This document shows, one piece after another, positions 2,265 through 41,514 of a DNA stretch of 42,227 nt. The notes beneath the pieces were generated by a model. The model ran no database searches and had not been told where the DNA came from. It saw nothing but the letters and a program-made list of their open reading frames with translations. Source of the DNA: Kiritimatiellales bacterium (lineage in GTDB: Bacteria; Verrucomicrobiota; Kiritimatiellia; Kiritimatiellales; Pontiellaceae); NCBI GenBank assembly GCA_021734345.1, contig JAIPJC010000012.1, forward strand, positions 1-42,227, in the 5' to 3' direction. Numbering within the stretch: position 1 is the stretch's first letter; each line of letters opens with the position of its first letter. The position numbers and the translations under genes are program-made.

Positions 2265-2299
2265 ATTACGAAGTACGTATTACGCAATACGTATTGCGT
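2265..2299. repeat. Heptamer array A1 with 20-bp perfect palindrome
   Basis: Five consecutive 7-nt units can be read: attacga, agtacgt, attacgc, aatacgt, attgcgt. The core at 2281-2300 is a perfect 20-bp palindrome (TACGCAATAC followed by its complement). It lies between the divergent SRAP and FAH-family genes. The same unit family recurs at 37613-37690 and 39159-39219. TTGCGT at 2294-2299 also serves as a plausible -35 box for the downstream gene. Confidence 0.75.
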
Positions 2300-2321
2300 A
2301 TCTTCTCCATCGCGCTACTCT
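2294..2321 (+). promoter_or_regulatory. Probable sigma-70 promoter of the FAH-family gene
   Basis: TTGCGT (2294-2299), a 16-nt spacer, then TACTCT (2316-2321), about 28 nt before the start codon. The -35 box is part of the heptamer array. This is pattern reading only. Confidence 0.4.
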
Positions 2322-10141: not shown

Positions 10142-10170
10142 TCCTGCCTTTGGAAAGTCAGGTGCAATCT

Positions 10171-11766
10171 ATGAGTGCTGAAAACAAGGTTTTTATCTAC
10201 GACACCACGCTGCGCGACGGCGCCCAGGCGGAAGGGGTGACCTTTTCTCCGGTTTCGAAGATCCACGTGGCCAAAATGCTGGACGCGTTCGGGGTGGACT
10301 ATATCGAGGGCGGCTATGCGGCCTCGAATCCCAAGGACATGGCCTTCTTCAAGGACATCAAGAAGGAAAACCTCCAGCACGCCAAGATCGCCGCGTTCGG
10401 CAGCACCCGCCGCGCAAACACGAAGGTCGAGGAAGACAAAGGTACGCTCGCGCTGCTCGAAGCCGGTACGGATGTCTGCACCATCTTCGGGAAAACGTGG
10501 CTGCTGCACGTGACCGAGGTCTTGAAAACCACGCCGGAAGAAAACCTGGCGATGATCGAAGACACCTGCCGCTTCCTGAAGGAACACGGCAAAGAGGTAA
10601 TCTACGATGCCGAGCACTTTTTCGACGGCTACCGCGACGACCCCGAATACGCCTTCCAAACCCTGGCGGCTGCCGCCAAGGGCGGTGCCGACGTGCTGGT
10701 GCTGTGCGACACCAATGGAGGCCGCCTGCCGCAGGAAATGTTCGAGACCACCCAGCTGGTTCGCGAAACCTTTAAGGTTGCGGTAGGCATCCACACGCAC
10801 AACGATTCGGAAATGGCCGTGGCCAACGCCATGGAGGCCGTCCGCGCCGGTGCCGTGCAGGTGCAGGGCACGATCAACGGCTTCGGCGAGCGCTGCGGCA
10901 ACTGCAACCTCGTTTCCGTGGTCGCCAACCTGATCCTGAAAACCGGCAAGACGTGCCTCGGCGATCCGTCGAAGCTGGATGGACTCAAGCAGCTTTCCAA
11001 ATTCGTGAACGAACAGGCCGGATTGCGCGACAACCAGCGCGCGGCATTCGTTGGCGACAGCGCGTTTGCGCACAAGGCCGGCATGCACGTCGATGGTGTC
11101 CGCAAGGTTTCGCAGAGCTTCGAGCATGTGCCGCCGGCGGCGGTCGGCAATGCGCGCCGTATCCTGATTTCAGAGCTTTCGGGCGCGAGCAACGTGATGG
11201 AAAAACTGCTCGAAATGGGCATGGACAACATCGACCGCAAGTCGCCGGAAGTGCGCGAGATCCTCCAGACCTTGGAAAGGATGGAGAAGAGCGGCTATGT
11301 CTACGAATCGGCCGACGCCTCCTTCAAGATGCTGATCAAGAAGGTGCTCAAGGAGCATCGGAGCTTCTTCGAGCTCGAAGGGTTCCGCGTCATTGTCGAA
11401 AAGCGCAGCAAGGATCAGCCCTGCCTTTCCGAGGCGACGCTCAAGCTGAAGGTGAACGGCGAAAGGGCCTTCACGGTCGGCGAAGGCGATGGCCCGGTCG
11501 ACGCGCTCAATTCCGCGTTGCGCCGTGCGCTCACGAAGTTCTATCCAAACATCGATGGCGTGCACCTCGCGGACTACCGCGTGAGCATCCTCGATCCCGA
11601 GGAAGCCACGGCGGCGAAGACCCGCGTGGTGATCGAATCGTCCGACGGCGTGTCGTCGTGGAGCACGGTCGGGGTTTCGGAAAACATCATCGAAGCCTCG
11701 TGGGAAGCCCTCGTCGACGGCGTGGAATACAAGCTGTTCCTTGATGAGGAGCAGCGTGAGGCGTGA
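10171..11766 (+). CDS. cimA: (R)-Citramalate synthase
   Basis: 531 aa DRE-TIM metallolyase. It condenses acetyl-CoA with pyruvate to citramalate, giving a threonine-independent route to 2-oxobutyrate and isoleucine. The start ATG at 10171 has AGGTG 7 nt upstream. The catalytic domain opens YDTTLRDGAQAEGVTFS, the GAQAEG form typical of CimA (isopropylmalate synthase has DGEQ). It continues with YIEGGYAASNPKD, metal-binding HTHNDSEMA and NGFGERCGN. The last about 130 residues are the LeuA-type regulatory dimer domain. Leucine-pathway genes are not adjacent. The last three residues (REA) are encoded by heptamer array C, which runs into the stop codon. Confidence 0.93.
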   Translation: MSAENKVFIYDTTLRDGAQAEGVTFSPVSKIHVAKMLDAFGVDYIEGGYAASNPKDMAFFKDIKKENLQHAKIAAFGSTRRANTKVEEDKGTLALLEAGTDVCTIFGKTWLLHVTEVLKTTPEENLAMIEDTCRFLKEHGKEVIYDAEHFFDGYRDDPEYAFQTLAAAAKGGADVLVLCDTNGGRLPQEMFETTQLVRETFKVAVGIHTHNDSEMAVANAMEAVRAGAVQVQGTINGFGERCGNCNLVSVVANLILKTGKTCLGDPSKLDGLKQLSKFVNEQAGLRDNQRAAFVGDSAFAHKAGMHVDGVRKVSQSFEHVPPAAVGNARRILISELSGASNVMEKLLEMGMDNIDRKSPEVREILQTLERMEKSGYVYESADASFKMLIKKVLKEHRSFFELEGFRVIVEKRSKDQPCLSEATLKLKVNGERAFTVGEGDGPVDALNSALRRALTKFYPNIDGVHLADYRVSILDPEEATAAKTRVVIESSDGVSSWSTVGVSENIIEASWEALVDGVEYKLFLDEEQREA

Positions 11767-11816
11767 AACGTGAGGCGTGATTTTCCCATTCACGCCTCAC
11801 TCATCAATCGTCACGA
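11754..11816. repeat. Heptamer array C (inverted), cimA-valS border
   Basis: Forward units gcgtgag, gcgtgaa, acgtgag, gcgtgat (11754-11781), then a 7-nt spacer, then reverse units ttcacgc, ctcactc, atcaatc, gtcacga (11789-11816). GTGAGGCGTGA (11770-11780) and its complement (11790-11800) make an 11-bp perfect stem with a 9-nt loop. It begins inside the last codons of cimA. It may end the cimA transcript, although there is no U-tract. Confidence 0.8.
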
Positions 11817-11850
11817 CCCTATTTAAAACAAAACAACTTGGATTAAACCC

Positions 11851-36643: not shown

Positions 36644-37134
36644 ACACAAGGATCAAAGGATCCCTTTTCCTAAAATGACGAATTAGGCAGTCCTCAAATT
36701 TAAGCATTTTCCTTCCGCCCCAGCCATTTGTGCTCCTTCTCTGTTCCCGCCATTCTTCCAATCTTTGAAAAAGCTTCTACCGGATTGCTTCGGTTGGGGG
36801 ACGGCATTTGCGTGCGAAAGCGAGGAGATCTGGTTCATTGGCACCCCGGTGGTTTCTGCACCATAAAGGTGTAGCGCGTGCCTCCCGGAGGGGGCGCGCC
36901 CTCTGCGCGCAGAGAGGTGCGCACTGTTGTCGAAGGACAGCGCTTCCAGCCTGTCTGCGGTGGTTCGATCCTTTGCGTGTGCCGACAGGCTGGAAGCGCT
37001 GTTGCTACTTTGCTTTGCATCCGCGAAAACCGATTAACTTAGAAGGCCGCCAAGATGGCGGCGGTACGTCCCGCAGGCATGCGGCCTGCAAAAAACCGAA
37101 CCAAACCGAAGATGGCATAAGCGGTTTTGCGGGG
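36644..37134. repeat. Gene-free repeat cluster between hisF and hisI
   Basis: About 490 bp with no credible gene, packed with inverted repeats. A 14-bp palindrome CTCTGCGCGCAGAG lies at 36901-36914. A 19-bp perfect inverted repeat (36937-36955 with 36984-37002, arm ACAGCGCTTCCAGCCTGTC) has a 28-nt loop. GCCGCCA-aga-TGGCGGC lies at 37046-37062, and GCAGGC-atgcg-GCCTGC at 37073-37089. The first 150 bp are AT-richer with no clear structure. It looks like a landing area of REP-type elements. Confidence 0.75.
36937..37002. repeat. 19-bp perfect inverted repeat, 28-nt loop
   Basis: Arm ACAGCGCTTCCAGCCTGTC at 36937-36955 and its exact complement at 36984-37002. It has the size of a REP-like or small RNA-forming hairpin and no coding potential. 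Confidence 0.85.
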
Positions 37135-37163
37135 TTGGCAACGCGGGGCCGGATACGTATAGT
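37135..37163 (+). promoter_or_regulatory. Strong sigma-70 promoter of hisI
   Basis: TTGGCA (37135-37140), exactly 17 nt, TATAGT (37158-37163), then GCCAG and CCTTTT. It is the best promoter match in the window; the 5' untranslated leader would be about 18 nt and ends in AGGAGG. Confidence 0.7.
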
Positions 37164-37187
37164 GCCAGCCTTTTAGAAGGAGGAACT

Positions 37188-37604
37188 ATGAGCAAGGAAC
37201 TTGAAGAAGGATTGGAACTGGCGCTGGACTGGAACAAGCTGGAAAAGGCTGTGGCCGGCACAAAGGGCATTATTCCCGTGGCGGTGCAGCACGCCGACAC
37301 CAAGGAAGTGATTCTGGTGGCCTACATCAACCGGCTCGCCTTCGAGGAGTCGCTCAAGCGCAAGATGCTGGTGCTGTGGAGCTCGTCGCGGCAGGAGTTG
37401 TGGATCAAGGGGCTGACCTCCGGCGAAACCTTCGAGCTGCTCGAAGCCTACGTCAACTGCGAGCAAAACTCGCTGCTGTTCGTCGTCCGCCCAAATCGCG
37501 GCGGCATCTGCCACACGAAGAATGCAAAAGGCGAACCGCGCAACTGCTACTATCGTCGGATCGATTTGGAAAATCCTGCGAAGCTGATCAATATTGACGA
37601 GTAG
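37188..37604 (+). CDS. hisI: Divergent phosphoribosyl-AMP cyclohydrolase
   Basis: 138 aa. HisI opens the purine ring of PR-AMP in histidine synthesis. The fold is clear: LDWNKLEKAVAGTKGIIPVAVQHADTKEVILVAYIN, then LWSSSRQELWIKGLTSG. Three zinc Cys survive (VNCEQN, GICHT, RNCYYRR). But the Mg2+-binding DxDxD around the first Cys is Asn-Cys-Glu-Gln-Asn here, and an insertion of about 7 residues separates the last two Cys. It could be an active variant, since hisF is its neighbour, or a paralogue with another role. Shine-Dalgarno AGGAGG at 5 nt and a strong promoter indicate good expression. It has no fused HisE domain. Confidence 0.8.
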   Translation: MSKELEEGLELALDWNKLEKAVAGTKGIIPVAVQHADTKEVILVAYINRLAFEESLKRKMLVLWSSSRQELWIKGLTSGETFELLEAYVNCEQNSLLFVVRPNRGGICHTKNAKGEPRNCYYRRIDLENPAKLINIDE

Positions 37605-37612
37605 ATTGCGCC

Positions 37613-37690
37613 GCGTATTGCGTACTACGTATTGCTTGACTGGATCCCGTCAGGCAGGACAAATACCCGCAATACGCAATACGCAATACG
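37613..37690. repeat. Heptamer array A2 (inverted), between hisI and the phosphohexomutase
   Basis: Left units gcgtatt, gcgtact, acgtatt, gc (37613-37635) and right units gcaatac three times exactly plus g (37669-37690), in opposite orientation, separated by 33 nt that include a TGAC...GTCA pair. It starts 9 nt after the hisI stop and reaches the Shine-Dalgarno of the next gene. Confidence 0.8.
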
Positions 37691-37700
37691 GAGAAACCCC

Positions 37701-39158
37701 ATGAAAATCAAAATCAACGACCTGATGCAGCAGAGCGGGGTGAAGTTCGGCACGAGCGGCGCGCGCGGGCTGGCGGTGGAGATGACCGACAAGGTTTGCT
37801 ACACCTACGCCAAGGGCTTTCTCCAATATCTGGAAGAAGACGGCCAGCTGAAGAAACGCGGCGAATCCGTGGCGATTGCCGGCGATCTGCGCCCGAGCAC
37901 CGGGCGGATCATGGCGGCAGTGGCGAAGGCGGCGTCCGACATGGGCTATGTTCCGATCAACTGCGGCCGTATTCCGTCGCCGGCCGTGGCGCTCTATGGA
38001 CTCGAAAACGCCTGTCCGTCCATCATGGTGACAGGCAGCCATATCCCGGCCGACCGCAACGGAATCAAGTTCAACAAGTGCACCGGTGAGATCCTTAAAC
38101 ATGATGAGGAGCAGATCCGCGAGCAGGTGGTTGAAGTCGACGATACCATCTTCGGTGGAAGTGAATTTACGTTGCCGGAGGAAAACATCGATGCGCGGAC
38201 CAACTATGTGAAGCGCTACACTACAACCTTTCCGGATGATTGCCTGAACGGAAAAAAGATCGGCATCTACCAGCACTCGGCCGTCGGACGCGATGTGCTG
38301 ATCGAAATATTTTCCGGGCTCGGCGCGGACGTTACGCCGCTCGGATTTTCCGACACGTTCATTCCCGTCGACACCGAAGCGATCCGCGCGGAGGATGTGG
38401 CGCTGGCGCGCGAATGGTCGACCGAAAACAAATTCGACGCCATCATTTCAACCGATGGCGACAGCGACCGCCCGCTCATCAGCGATGAAAAGGGCGTATG
38501 GCTGCGCGGCGACGTGGCTGGAATTCTCGCCGCAAAATACATGGGAGCGGATTCGGTCAGCACGCCGGTCAGCTGCAATACCGCGCTCGAAAAATGCGAA
38601 TGGTTCGAGGATATCCGCCGCACCAGGATCGGCTCGCCGTTCGTGGTGGCTTCGATGATCGAAGCCTCGTTCGCCGGTCGCAAGGGCGTCGTAGGCTACG
38701 AAGCCAACGGCGGCTTCCTGACCAATAGCGATTTTGCCATCGCCGGCAAGGAGTTGCGCGCCCTGCCGACGCGCGACGCGGTGTTGCCGGTGCTCGCCAT
38801 CATTCTGCTCTCGATCCAGGAGCGCAAGACGATCTCCGCGTTGCTCGCCGGCTTGCCGCAACGTTTCACCGCCAGCGACCGCATCCAGGATTTCCCGACC
38901 GAAAACAGCCGTTTGATCCTCCAAAAGTTCGAGGATATTTCCGCGATCAACGAAGCCTTCGGCGAAAGCTTTGGACCGATCAAATCCATCGACAACACCG
39001 ATGGCCTGCGCATCACCTTCCAATCCATGGAAGTCCTGCACATGCGGCCATCCGGCAACGCTCCCGAGTTCCGCTGCTACAACGAGGCCGATTCCGAAGA
39101 GCGCGTGCAGGAGATGCAGGGAATTTCGATGGAGATTTTGCTGAAATTGAAGGGGTAG
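37701..39158 (+). CDS. Phosphomannomutase/phosphoglucomutase (alpha-D-phosphohexomutase family)
   Basis: 485 aa. It interconverts hexose 1- and 6-phosphates through a phosphoserine. The active Ser is in VTGSHIPADRNGIKF (about residue 112), the Mg2+ loop is STDGDSDRP, sugar recognition is EANGGFL, and the phosphate-binding loop is RPSGNAPEFR near the C-terminus. The GSHIP form is closest to bacterial phosphomannomutases. The start at 37701 has GGAGA; an in-frame start at 37632 would lie inside the heptamer array. It is flanked on both sides by family A arrays and isolated from other sugar nucleotide genes. Confidence 0.92.
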   Translation: MKIKINDLMQQSGVKFGTSGARGLAVEMTDKVCYTYAKGFLQYLEEDGQLKKRGESVAIAGDLRPSTGRIMAAVAKAASDMGYVPINCGRIPSPAVALYGLENACPSIMVTGSHIPADRNGIKFNKCTGEILKHDEEQIREQVVEVDDTIFGGSEFTLPEENIDARTNYVKRYTTTFPDDCLNGKKIGIYQHSAVGRDVLIEIFSGLGADVTPLGFSDTFIPVDTEAIRAEDVALAREWSTENKFDAIISTDGDSDRPLISDEKGVWLRGDVAGILAAKYMGADSVSTPVSCNTALEKCEWFEDIRRTRIGSPFVVASMIEASFAGRKGVVGYEANGGFLTNSDFAIAGKELRALPTRDAVLPVLAIILLSIQERKTISALLAGLPQRFTASDRIQDFPTENSRLILQKFEDISAINEAFGESFGPIKSIDNTDGLRITFQSMEVLHMRPSGNAPEFRCYNEADSEERVQEMQGISMEILLKLKG

Positions 39159-39219
39159 TATTGCGTACTGCGTATTACGTATTGCTCAGGAAGATACGCA
39201 GTACGAAATACGCGATACG
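39159..39219. repeat. Heptamer array A3 (inverted), phosphohexomutase-trpE border
   Basis: The clearest array: tattgcg, tactgcg, tattacg, tattgct (39159-39186), a 5-nt spacer cagga, then agatacg, cagtacg, aaatacg, cgatacg (39192-39219). It begins directly after the stop codon of the upstream gene. Confidence 0.85.
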
Positions 39220-39230
39220 TGTCATTTTGG

Positions 39231-39258
39231 TTGCGAAGCAACGCTAAAAAGCTACCAT
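39231..39258 (+). promoter_or_regulatory. Probable sigma-70 promoter of trpE
   Basis: TTGCGA (39231-39236), a 16-nt spacer, TACCAT (39253-39258), then CCGG and CCTTT; 27 nt before the trpE start. No leader peptide with Trp codons and no attenuator was seen. Confidence 0.5.
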
Positions 39259-39285
39259 CCGGCCTTTAATCAACGAGAACGAACC

Positions 39286-40839
39286 ATGGCTGTAGTACCC
39301 GATAGAAAAACATTCTTGGAAAAAGCGAAGCTGGGAAACCTGGTGCCGGTGTGGAAGGAAATCCTCGCCGACCAGGAGACGCCGGTTTCGGCCTACGAGC
39401 GCGTACGCACCTATCTGCGGCAACGCGAACACGCCTCGCACACCTATCTGCTCGAAAGCGTCGAAGGCGGCGAAAAGATTGGGCGCTACTCCTTCATCGG
39501 CGGCACGCCGCGCACGATCATCCGCGCCTATGGCCGTCGCGTGGAGATCGCCAACAACGGCGATGCGGTGCAGGTGATCGAAGACATCGATCCGCTCGAC
39601 GCGCTGAAAAACCACATGAAGCAGTTTTCACCGGTGGTGGACGACCCTTCGCTGCCGCGCTTCATTGGCGGGGCGGTTGGCTTTCTCGGATACGACCTCA
39701 TTTCCCAGTTCGAGCCGCGGGTTCCCATCATTGGCAACGACGAGATCGGCAATCCGGACATGGTGTTCATGGTAACCGACGGGCTTATTGTTTTCGACCG
39801 GGTGAACCATACTCTCAAGGTTGTTGCCAATGCGCACATCAATGGCGATCCGGACGCGGCCTACGACAGGGCGCTGGCGCAGATCGACGAGCTTTGCGAA
39901 GCCTTGCAGACGCCGGTCAAGCGGGTGTTGATCGATACGCATGATGAAGTCGAGCCGCTGGAGCCGAAGTCGAACACGACCAAGGCGGAGTTTCTCGGCA
40001 TGGTGGAAAAGGCGCAGGAATACATCCGCGCCGGCGACATTATCCAAACCGTGCTTTCCCAGCGCTTCGAAGTGGAGAACACCGCCGACTCGCTCGATGT
40101 CTACCGCGCGCTTCGCACGATCAACCCTTCGCCGTACATGTACTGTCTCGACATGGGCGAAAGCTCCATCGTCGGGACATCCCCGGAAATCCTTGTCCGT
40201 TGCGAAGACAAGCACGTCGAAGTGCGCCCGATCGCCGGAACCCGTCCGCGCGGCAAAACGCCAGCCGAGGACCTGGCTTTCGAAAAGGATTTGCTGGCCG
40301 ACCCGAAAGAACGGGCGGAGCATATCATGCTGGTCGATTTGGGCCGCAACGACATTGGCCGCGTTTGCGATTTTAATTCGATAACCGTGTCCGACCTGAT
40401 GGTGATCGAGCGCTATAGCCACGTCATGCACATTGTTTCCGACGTGACCGGCCATCTGTCCGACGACCACGATGAATACGACGTCATGCGGGTCGCCTTC
40501 CCGGCCGGCACCGTGAGCGGCGCGCCGAAGATCCGCGCGATGGAAATCATCGCCGAACTCGAAAAGAGCAAGCGCGGGCCGTATGCCGGCGCGGTGGGCT
40601 ATTTCAACTACAACGGAAACTTCGATTCGTGCATCACCATCCGCACGGTGATTCTCGACAAGAACAAGGCCTACGTCCAGGCCGGGGCGGGCATCGTTGC
40701 GGACTCCGTGCCGATCAGCGAATACGAAGAGACGCGCAACAAGGCCCGCGGCATGATGAAGGCCTTGGCTCTTGCGCGGCACTATGCCGCGGCAAGAACC
40801 AAGGGAAGCGTGAAACCTGAAACTGGAAACCTGAATTAG
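39286..40839 (+). CDS. trpE: Anthranilate synthase component I
   Basis: 517 aa chorismate-using enzyme, first step of tryptophan synthesis. The N-terminal lobe carries the tryptophan feedback motif LLES (55-58) in [22 protein letters not shown], which argues for TrpE rather than PabB. The chorismate-binding lobe has [59 protein letters not shown] and [18 protein letters not shown]. The last nine residues (VKPETGNLN) are encoded by heptamer array B and are not part of the normal family end. trpG follows after 65 bp. Confidence 0.96.
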
Positions 40840-40904
40840 GGGCAGAGTCAGATGAGAGGTATTTTCAAGTTTCACATTTCAGGTTTCACATTTCAGGTTT
40901 CATT
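40810..40904. repeat. Heptamer array B (inverted), trpE-trpG border
   Basis: Left units gtgaaac, ctgaaac, tggaaac, ctgaatt (40810-40837) lie inside the trpE coding end. Right units tttcaag, tttcaca, tttcagg, tttcaca, tttcagg, tttcatt (40863-40904) run without a break up to the trpG ATG. The spacer is 25 nt. The last CAGG is the only visible trpG Shine-Dalgarno (7-nt spacing). Confidence 0.85.
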
Positions 40905-41468
40905 ATGATTTTAGTGATCGATAACTACGACTCGTTTACCTACAACCTCGTGCAGTATCTCGGCGAGCTGGGCGCGGAGATGCGCGTATTCCGCAACGAC
41001 GAGATTACCGTGGAGCAGGCGGTTGCGCTCAAGCCCGAAAAGGTGCTGGTCAGTCCCGGTCCGTGTACGCCGAAGGAGGCCGGAGTTTCGTGCGACATCA
41101 TCCGCGAGTTCGGCCCGCGCATTCCGTTGTTCGGCGTCTGCCTCGGCCACCAGGCGATTGGCGATGTCTATGGCGGGAAAGTCATCCGTGCCGACCGCCT
41201 GATGCACGGCAAGACGTCGCCCATGATCCACGAGGGTGAAAGCGTGTTCAAAGGACTGCCGAGCCCATTTGATGCGACCCGCTACCACTCGCTCATCATC
41301 GAGCGCAAATCGATTCCCGACTGCCTGAAGATTACGGCATGGACGGCAGAAGGCGAAATCATGGGGGTCCAGCATAAGCAACATCCGGTACACGGCGTCC
41401 AGTTCCATCCCGAATCGATCCTGACGGTCGAAGGCAAGAAGCTGCTGCAGAACTTTTTGGATCTGTAG
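40905..41468 (+). CDS. trpG: Anthranilate/aminodeoxychorismate synthase component II (glutamine amidotransferase)
   Basis: 187 aa class I glutaminase that feeds ammonia to TrpE and possibly PabB. It begins [23 protein letters not shown]. The oxyanion/PGPCTP loop is present, the nucleophile is Cys79 in [11 protein letters not shown], and His/Glu are in [11 protein letters not shown]. The start is directly at the end of heptamer array B. No other trp genes follow; nadE converges from the right. Confidence 0.95.
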
Positions 41469-41514
41469 GATGCAACTCCAGCTGCGTCCAGTCGATGCTG
41501 GAGCATCAACCTAC
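41465..41514. terminator. Imperfect inverted repeat between trpG and nadE
   Basis: An 18-nt arm 41465-41482 pairs at 14 of 18 positions with 41497-41514 (CTCCAGC and GCTGGAG are perfect), loop 14 nt. It overlaps the trpG stop and ends 1 nt before the nadE stop, so it could end both transcripts, but there is no U-tract. It may be another REP-type element. Confidence 0.5.

Follow-up and report, generated by a model that had tools for sequence, protein, structure and literature searches.

Heptamer repeats known as STRRs occur in filamentous cyanobacteria. Three heptanucleotides of Calothrix are mentioned in the available passages of PMC4692102, along with GGGAATC and GGGGA(C/T)T heptamers in Xanthomonas and Nostoc, and inverted heptamer pairs are counted there at 70 cases in Xcc and 75 in Xac. 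The Xanthomonas and Nostoc heptamers resemble the arrays described here in their 7-nt units, their intergenic location, the presence of several units per array, and their position close behind the upstream gene. However, in those passages the repeats are treated as simple sequence repeats or G-quadruplexes, and the main text of PMC4692102 has no occurrence of “S23” or “four-helix.” TAACTGA heptamer repeats are reported from Beggiatoaceae, Cyanobacteria, and Bacteroidetes (PMC4679880) and are likewise intergenic, with a scattered occurrence that points to transfer; in contrast to the present arrays, the accessible part of that paper describes them as mostly direct repeats of one word and possible sites of translational control, and names no mobile gene.

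Another related system is the intervening sequence (IVS) of 23S rRNA, which is termed a selfish element of patchy distribution in the available part of PMC4990558 and which shares with the present elements a protein of the S23p/IVP family and complementary ends round one ORF. The present elements differ from the IVS in lying at protein-gene borders, often in operons, instead of in rRNA helices, and in having arms of iterated 7- or 8-nt units, many gene-less copies, and a target duplication. The ORF-in-stem layout of the IVS is seen in the gene-bearing relatives of the arrays studied here and is absent from the arrays themselves, which are situated between long open frames and apparently not in a 23S rRNA helix. 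Inverted Xanthomonas heptamers, TAACTGA heptamers, and S23 ORFs in rRNA intervening sequences are thus already known, and the belief of the first-pass annotation that heptamer repeats were not known as mixed-word inverted arrays needs correction in view of the GGGAATC inverted pairs in print for Xanthomonas (PMC4692102). No paper among the open-access matches listed connects heptamer arrays with IVP genes, although sources beyond this scope, such as subscription papers and bioRxiv, may do so. REPs with their RAYT transposases and MITEs also have short inverted ends, lie in intergenic DNA, and have more gene-less than gene-bearing copies. The present elements differ from both in that their sole gene is the IVP gene, the words follow the protein lineage, and the spacers of gene-less copies are unrelated by eye.

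The window, by which we mean the whole stretch of DNA that was analysed, is a complete contig of 42,227 bases from a draft host genome of 3.25 Mb (176 contigs, 85% complete). Reading of each site and TRF both identified 7-nt periodicity at all five gene borders for which the first-pass annotation had claimed heptamer arrays, and its description of forward units, a spacer, and reversed units at four sites, with the fifth centred on a 20-bp palindrome, agrees with what is seen. Its “strict register” holds for the spacing of the units and not for their sequence, which is degenerate. In the first array (2265..2301; no strand assigned; TRF and lag runs), which is of the GTATTGC type, the arms are swapped so that the reversed word precedes the word, and the palindrome TACGCAATACGTATTGCGTA at 2281-2300 forms the centre. 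Joining of both ends of an element would be expected to give such reversed polarity, which is seen in one case only. At the second border, a left arm of the word GCGTGAG (GTGAGGC) on the forward strand (11754..11780; TRF) encodes the final codons and stop of the upstream frame 10150-11766, and a right arm with the GTGAGGC-type word reversed lies on the reverse strand (11790..11815; read by sequence). The third border has three GTATTGC units on the forward strand (37615..37635; read by sequence) and 3.3 perfect units of reversed GTATTGC on the reverse strand (37668..37690; TRF). At the fourth border, the first base of a left arm of four GTATTGC units (39158..39185, forward strand; TRF) is the last stop-codon base of the upstream gene (frame end 39158), and the right arm is degenerate and of the reversed GTATTGC type (39194..39219, reverse strand; TRF). 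The fifth border carries a left arm of the word TGAAACC (40811..40835, forward strand; TRF) within the final codons of the frame 39286-40839 and a right arm of reversed TGAAACC that is strongest at period 14 (40863..40902, reverse strand; TRF and lag runs) and stops just 5' of the start codon at 40905. Spacers in the window measure at most 32 nt and no IVP gene lies between the arms. The arrays probably belong to a family of small mobile elements of the IVP/S23 type, for which the evidence is given below, and as members of it they can only be gene-less copies or remnants. The outer ends of the five window arrays have no 5-8 bp repeat that could represent a target duplication.

All five arrays fold more strongly as RNA than shuffled sequences do (z of −3.5 for the 2265 array, −5.3 for 11750-11820, −3.9 for 37608-37695, −4.0 for 39156-39222, and −5.9 for 40806-40905), although inverted arrays necessarily fold strongly as RNA and recognition at the DNA level and at the RNA level is therefore indistinguishable here. 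Strong hairpins and a location at stop codons (39158) would also suit transcription terminators or boundary hairpins that are kept for the benefit of the host. We regard this explanation as extremely unlikely, as a single terminator-like match touches an array (39210-39222, 5 pairs), a scan of 37000-41500 (4.5 kb) gave 3 matches against 5.4 in shuffles, i.e., fewer, the orthologous borders of relatives are often free of arrays, and the link between protein and word described below would be left unexplained.

Period 7 stands out both in the window and in the host genome. Based on a criterion of at least 17 of 21 matches, the window has two runs at lag 7, two at lag 14, and one, in coding sequence, at lag 18, with none at the other lags from 4 to 30. 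In 1.03 Mb of the host genome there are 25 runs at lag 7, 11 at lag 14, and 10 at lag 21, compared to one at lag 6, none at lag 8, and six each at lags 15, 18, and 30, so that the excess of period 7 over periods 6 and 8 named as a check in the first-pass annotation is present. The lag-7 runs are mostly non-coding in 11 of 25 cases under a crude coding mask that may have called many borders coding. The sequence TAYTRCGTAYTRCGTAYTRCG has 63 matches in the genome, some of them overlapping, and its reversed control has none. Array words in the host genome are many and include GTATTGC, GTAATGC, TGAAACC, CCTAAAG, GTGAGGC, and CGGCAAT, among others. Like the repeats called STRRs, the host-genome arrays are tandem heptamers, intergenic, and dispersed in many copies; the 1.03 Mb sample lists 37 array sites, a few of which are in coding DNA and probably reflect chance. 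The spacers of the gene-less arrays in the host genome are dissimilar among themselves by eye, which argues that these arrays are not simple copies of one master, and MITE-like copying from a single master was judged improbable on this ground. The arrays were not found to be copies of one transposed element, the outcome by which the first-pass annotation would have withdrawn its proposal. Long arrays were seen at or near contig ends (G000 C114:17-142, G008 C201, G002 C320, and G017 C412), which suggests that assemblies may break there and that array counts in draft genomes are lower bounds.

A candidate agent is indicated by an array pair of the host genome, C3:11573-12115, which encloses a broken gene of PF05635 (“23S rRNA IVP,” S23, or four helix bundle protein; the NCBIfam name for three tested homologues is TIGR02436, four helix bundle protein). 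By eye, inverted arrays of 7- or 8-nt words surround eight of the nine PF05635 matches in the host genome, each with a different word (GTCAGAC, CTTTAGG, GGTTGTT, the octamer GGGGAGTG, GCAGGAT, CCGATTG, GAACGTT, and GTATTGC). Seven of these eight loci reach at least 16 of 21 matches at lag 7 or 8 on one side at least, and the eighth (L116) reaches 14; one locus (L120) additionally has 17 at lag 9. The ninth PF05635 match is weak, lies within a larger frame, and has no array. None of the nine matches in this 85% complete genome is a gene-bearing element with the TGAAACC or GTGAGGC word.

The association extends far beyond the host genome. We compared IVP loci with their own far flanks at a threshold of at least 15 of 21 matches at lag 7 or 8. 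The first set held 118 loci, nine from the host genome and 109 from relatives up to the same class (29 + 80 from the matches listed, with four rows left out for contig ends or a long frame), and 97 of them had an array on at least one side and 47 on both sides, compared to 4 and 1 for the far flanks. Lags 6, 9, 10, and 11 at IVP loci were close to control levels. The second set of named loci, which are the best 80 of at least 585 and were picked by protein pattern alone, represents Nitrospirae, Bacteroidota, Proteobacteria, Clostridia, Planctomycetes, Acidobacteria, Cyanobacteria, Chloroflexi, candidate phyla, and others; here 75 loci had an array on at least one side and 54 on both, against 11 and 1 for the far flanks. 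Arrays were below the threshold at 21 of the 118 and 5 of the 80 IVP loci.

The two arms of an element share a word in inverted orientation. After exclusion of one locus with no upstream flank (L157), an inverted word common to both arms exceeded the 95% mismatched-pair control at 71 of 117 loci, compared to six for the direct orientation, and the same test on the named loci gave 53 of 78 and four, respectively. In the inward direction, G outnumbers C within the word in 61 of 64 elements of the relatives' set and in 58 of 65 of the named set, and AG recurs at a fixed position in 55 of 67 strong named words (followed in frequency by TA in 34 and GG in 32, with CT in 10). Among the window words, AG is found in GTGAGGC only. 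An exact stem under selection was considered as well and was rejected, as unit-permutation tests, which took in 50 elements in one run and 55 and 56 in another, gave an excess of in-register copying between arms in the relatives' set only (9 of 400 shuffles reach the observed value) and none in the named set (92 of 400). Because the arms are hardly in-register copies of each other, a precise stem does not appear to be kept. This bears on an RNA-level element similar to the 23S rRNA intervening sequences, in which the arms would pair in the transcript, RNase III would excise the stem, and binding by the IVP would be irrelevant to movement. The protein family and the layout of a stem plus ORF, as described in the available part of PMC4990558, speak for such an element, as does the stable folding of all five window arrays. 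However, the arms share a word and hardly any further in-register complementarity, and a stem as such would have no need of a word that depends on the protein, as this one does; we therefore consider an RNA-level element unlikely.

The word is inherited and diverges with the IVP protein, also among copies in unrelated surroundings. Pairs of loci in unrelated surroundings were compared by protein identity, based on the 97 of 117 loci whose better arm reached 15 of 21 or more, and the word was shared in 69 of 3638 pairs below 40% identity, 29 of 598 at 40-50%, 10 of 148 at 50-60%, 17 of 62 at 60-70%, 9 of 22 at 70-80%, and 9 of 14 above 80%. For pairs of more than 60% identity, the word was shared in 35 of 98, whereas 2000 permutations gave 4.5 on average and never more than 13. 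The relatives of the host's broken IVP form a series. By eye, ten at 70-81% identity have GTATTGC-type arms, some of them mixed with other forms, and eleven at 57-67% identity have arms of the GTAATGC type (six) or GTGAGGC type (five). The GTGAGGC word type brackets IVP genes in relatives (L277, L279, L285, and L293; only the left arm was read in L278), and TGAAACC brackets a second IVP subfamily (L439, L447, and L448, mutually 79-89% identical), so that each window word type has a gene-bearing partner within the same genus. The first-pass annotation had described three unrelated words, and two of these belong to one protein subfamily because the identity series carries GTATTGC, GTAATGC, and GTGAGGC, whereas TGAAACC does belong to another subfamily.

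One orthologous border, located 5' of a gene that by eye is response-regulator-like, has a GTATTGC or a GTAATGC array depending on the species, from which it seems that something changes the words in concert. Both arms were read at this border in L282-L284 and have the same word; in L281 and L294 the right arm was not seen after the frame. The first-pass annotation had proposed a common process that writes or maintains 7-nt iterations. A shared agent behind arrays of different words is supported by the present results, but an anonymous writing of 7-nt iterations has no evidence in its favour. Of the 14 genomes of genus g1 that have the protein subfamily, 11 contain TATTGCG arrays, compared to 0 of the 14 that lack it, so that three genomes have the protein without the exact motif and 14 have neither; the subfamily cut-off of E < 1e-25 was chosen after the list was seen. 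The array/subfamily table over all 58 genomes reads 11, 1, 8, and 38, and shared ancestry inflates these counts. Some genomes speak against a tight link: in three with TATTGCG arrays (G001, G008, and G021), those subfamily proteins that were read carry GTAATGC or GTGAGGC words instead, and one (G028) has a TATTGCG array with the subfamily absent.

Comparison of the window-gene borders across species shows an array, another word, another hairpin, or none, at an identity of about 80% that makes a finer reading impossible. Upstream of a pgm-like gene, relatives (L087, L089, L095, and L097) have hairpin repeats of the CGTAGTTCCGCCTTTAGGCGG and GTAGACGGAGCTTCCA types at the same border, which may therefore be a hotspot of repeat insertion. 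The evidence for mobility comes from cyanobacterial plasmids and not from the window's own genus. Here, the gene and its arrays move as one unit, which related plasmids either have or lack at the corresponding position. Six plasmid IVP elements were used as queries and gene-free relatives were found for five, the sixth (L390) matching only itself. At site 1, Trichormus plasmid C (NC_007412) reads GTAAT-[arrays and IVP]-GTAAT, where four 97%-identical plasmids (those read of six empty relatives listed) have a single GTAAT; a Nostoc plasmid has a truncated element, and a Brasilonema plasmid (L401, 1160-1260) has a gene-less array with the same word as the relatives' element and the centre GGAAACCCGCCCACGGCGCTGCCTCC. 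Site 2 has diverged, so that a target duplication is not readable. At site 3, about 40 bases of the empty spacer are missing, and a Nostoc plasmid (L474) has arrays without the gene. At site 4, the insertion is within the final codons of the upstream gene, and about 16 nt of the empty site are unaligned. At site 5, TTCTA is duplicated in Nostoc ATCC 53789 pNsp_a and single in C057 p057_H, with one G differing, and two further empty relatives read TTTTA. A 5-bp target duplication is thus readable at two of the five sites, and array-free plasmids are among the gene-free relatives at all five. Elements with the word CAGGAGT are found at three different locations (L389, L463, and L466), and the alignment of L463 to L389 (416 bp, 83%) extends only from about one arm to the other. 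The cyanobacterial heptamer repeats that the first-pass annotation offered for comparison are an apt parallel. In a Nostoc plasmid and a Calothrix plasmid, the IVP gene is bracketed by GGGAGTA and GGGTGTA heptamers, respectively. Among four IVP genes inspected on plasmids, one (L391) has no array by eye. Phages were considered as carriers and rejected, with a single weak match. In a Picosynechococcus plasmid (L462, 1480-1836), the annotation places an IVP gene within a type III-B CRISPR locus, between cas10/cmr2 and cmr3.

The plasmid sites also address the reverse order of events, in which polymerase slippage would first produce heptamer repeats that then serve as landing sites for IVP genes. 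Gene-less arrays do outnumber gene-bearing ones, PF05635 matches adjoining 3 of the 37 array sites in 1.03 Mb (at two genes), one relative each at plasmid sites 1 (L401) and 3 (L474) has an array without the gene, and perfect arrays such as those of GTAATGC can be lengthened by slippage. Nevertheless, the array-free, gene-lacking relatives at each of the five sites largely refute this order, and we judge it to be very unlikely: the word travels with the protein to unrelated locations, slippage yields direct and not inverted arrays, and it has no reason to favour 7 and 8 around one protein family across many phyla.

The structure of the IVP protein suggests how an iterated word could be recognized. 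The AlphaFold2 model of one homologue (L327; pLDDT 97) is similar to the solved IVPs 2gsc and 2rld (TM 0.95 and 0.88, respectively), each of which has five chains, and the Xanthomonas IVP is reported as a toroidal homopentamer in the available part of PMC4990558. Residues W6, P24, Q34, R37, S41, N45, I46, A47, E48, G49, R52, S68, and E71 (numbering of L327) are invariant among 61 proteins from many phyla, in an alignment that left out 19 of the 80 named loci because of stop codons, short length, or a match off the standard place. The model also resembles Avd of diversity-generating retroelements (DGR), with TM of about 0.8 to Avd 4dwl and the DGR complex 8ube (Foldseek E of 0.007 and 0.011, respectively), and PF05635 is stated to resemble Avd in the part of PMC10053308 that was available. 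However, Avd works beside a reverse transcriptase and a template repeat, neither of which is seen in the IVP element. These similarities, together with the concerted change of words at one border, would be compatible with a retroelement, in which the Avd-related IVP and a reverse transcriptase acting in trans would write the iterated words during cDNA synthesis. As the RVT_1 reverse transcriptase has no match in the host genome (85% complete) and no partner gene is seen in the element, a retroelement appears decidedly improbable.

We favor instead a family of small mobile elements, of which the window arrays are probably gene-less copies or remnants. A full element consists of two arms around a single short gene for the IVP/S23 four-helix bundle; the first arm reads inward and has some 3-8 units of a word of 7 nt, or less often 8 nt, and the second has the same word reversed. 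The IVP ring, homopentameric and with an Avd-like fold, may bind the repeated word on single-stranded DNA or RNA and could thereby mark and pair both ends, which would enable the movement of gene-bearing and gene-less copies alike. TRAP is one ring-shaped protein that recognizes iterated words in a single strand. A ring of this kind would explain the period, the free positions of the units, the loose copying between arms, and why the word depends on the protein. No transposase or recombinase was seen inside the element, and the enzyme for cutting or copying could be either the IVP itself or a host enzyme. Insertions at gene borders would cause the least harm, and the window arrays may either have moved without the gene or have lost it in place.

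A broader proposal, which is plausible although we hold it to be somewhat less probable than its negation, is that IVP/S23 genes, together with their arrays, are a transposable-element class in their own right that occurs across bacteria. A pentamer without a known catalytic domain would recognize an iterated 7- or 8-nt word on either side of the gene that encodes it, with about one unit to each subunit, would move copies with or without this gene while duplicating 5 bp of the target, and would rewrite all units in step with its changing specificity, and heptamer repeats including STRRs would be the footprints. If true, this would explain where the heptamer repeats of cyanobacteria, Xanthomonas, and other bacteria come from, and it would give a testable role to the IVP/S23 family, whose members are now annotated as “ribosomal” or “intervening sequence” proteins with no known function. 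Should the IVP move DNA although it has no known catalytic domain, it would represent a new kind of mobile-element enzyme. Moreover, the many natural pairs of protein and word constitute a code-breaking set for the question of which residues read which word.

The GxxExxY family (PDDEXK_3, PF13366) may be another protein family whose genes have this layout. GxxExxY genes bracketed by short inverted repeated units were observed in relatives (L402-L431) and in the host genome itself (L125 and L127). At the threshold, lag 9 passes in just 4 and 3 of 30 flanks, compared to 1 and 2 in the controls, so that the 9-nt arrays of GxxExxY genes are a lead only. Octamer units were considered for these elements and rejected, as the units look to be 9 nt long by eye. 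The units are, by eye, of 9 nt (CACAGAG.., CACGAAATA, and ACAGGAT..) or of the GCAAAGACGC types. A trpE-trpG-like border, at which the repeats are absent in some relatives, has GxxExxY genes in others (PF13366 matches in L088, L106, L109, and L113, and by eye in L090).
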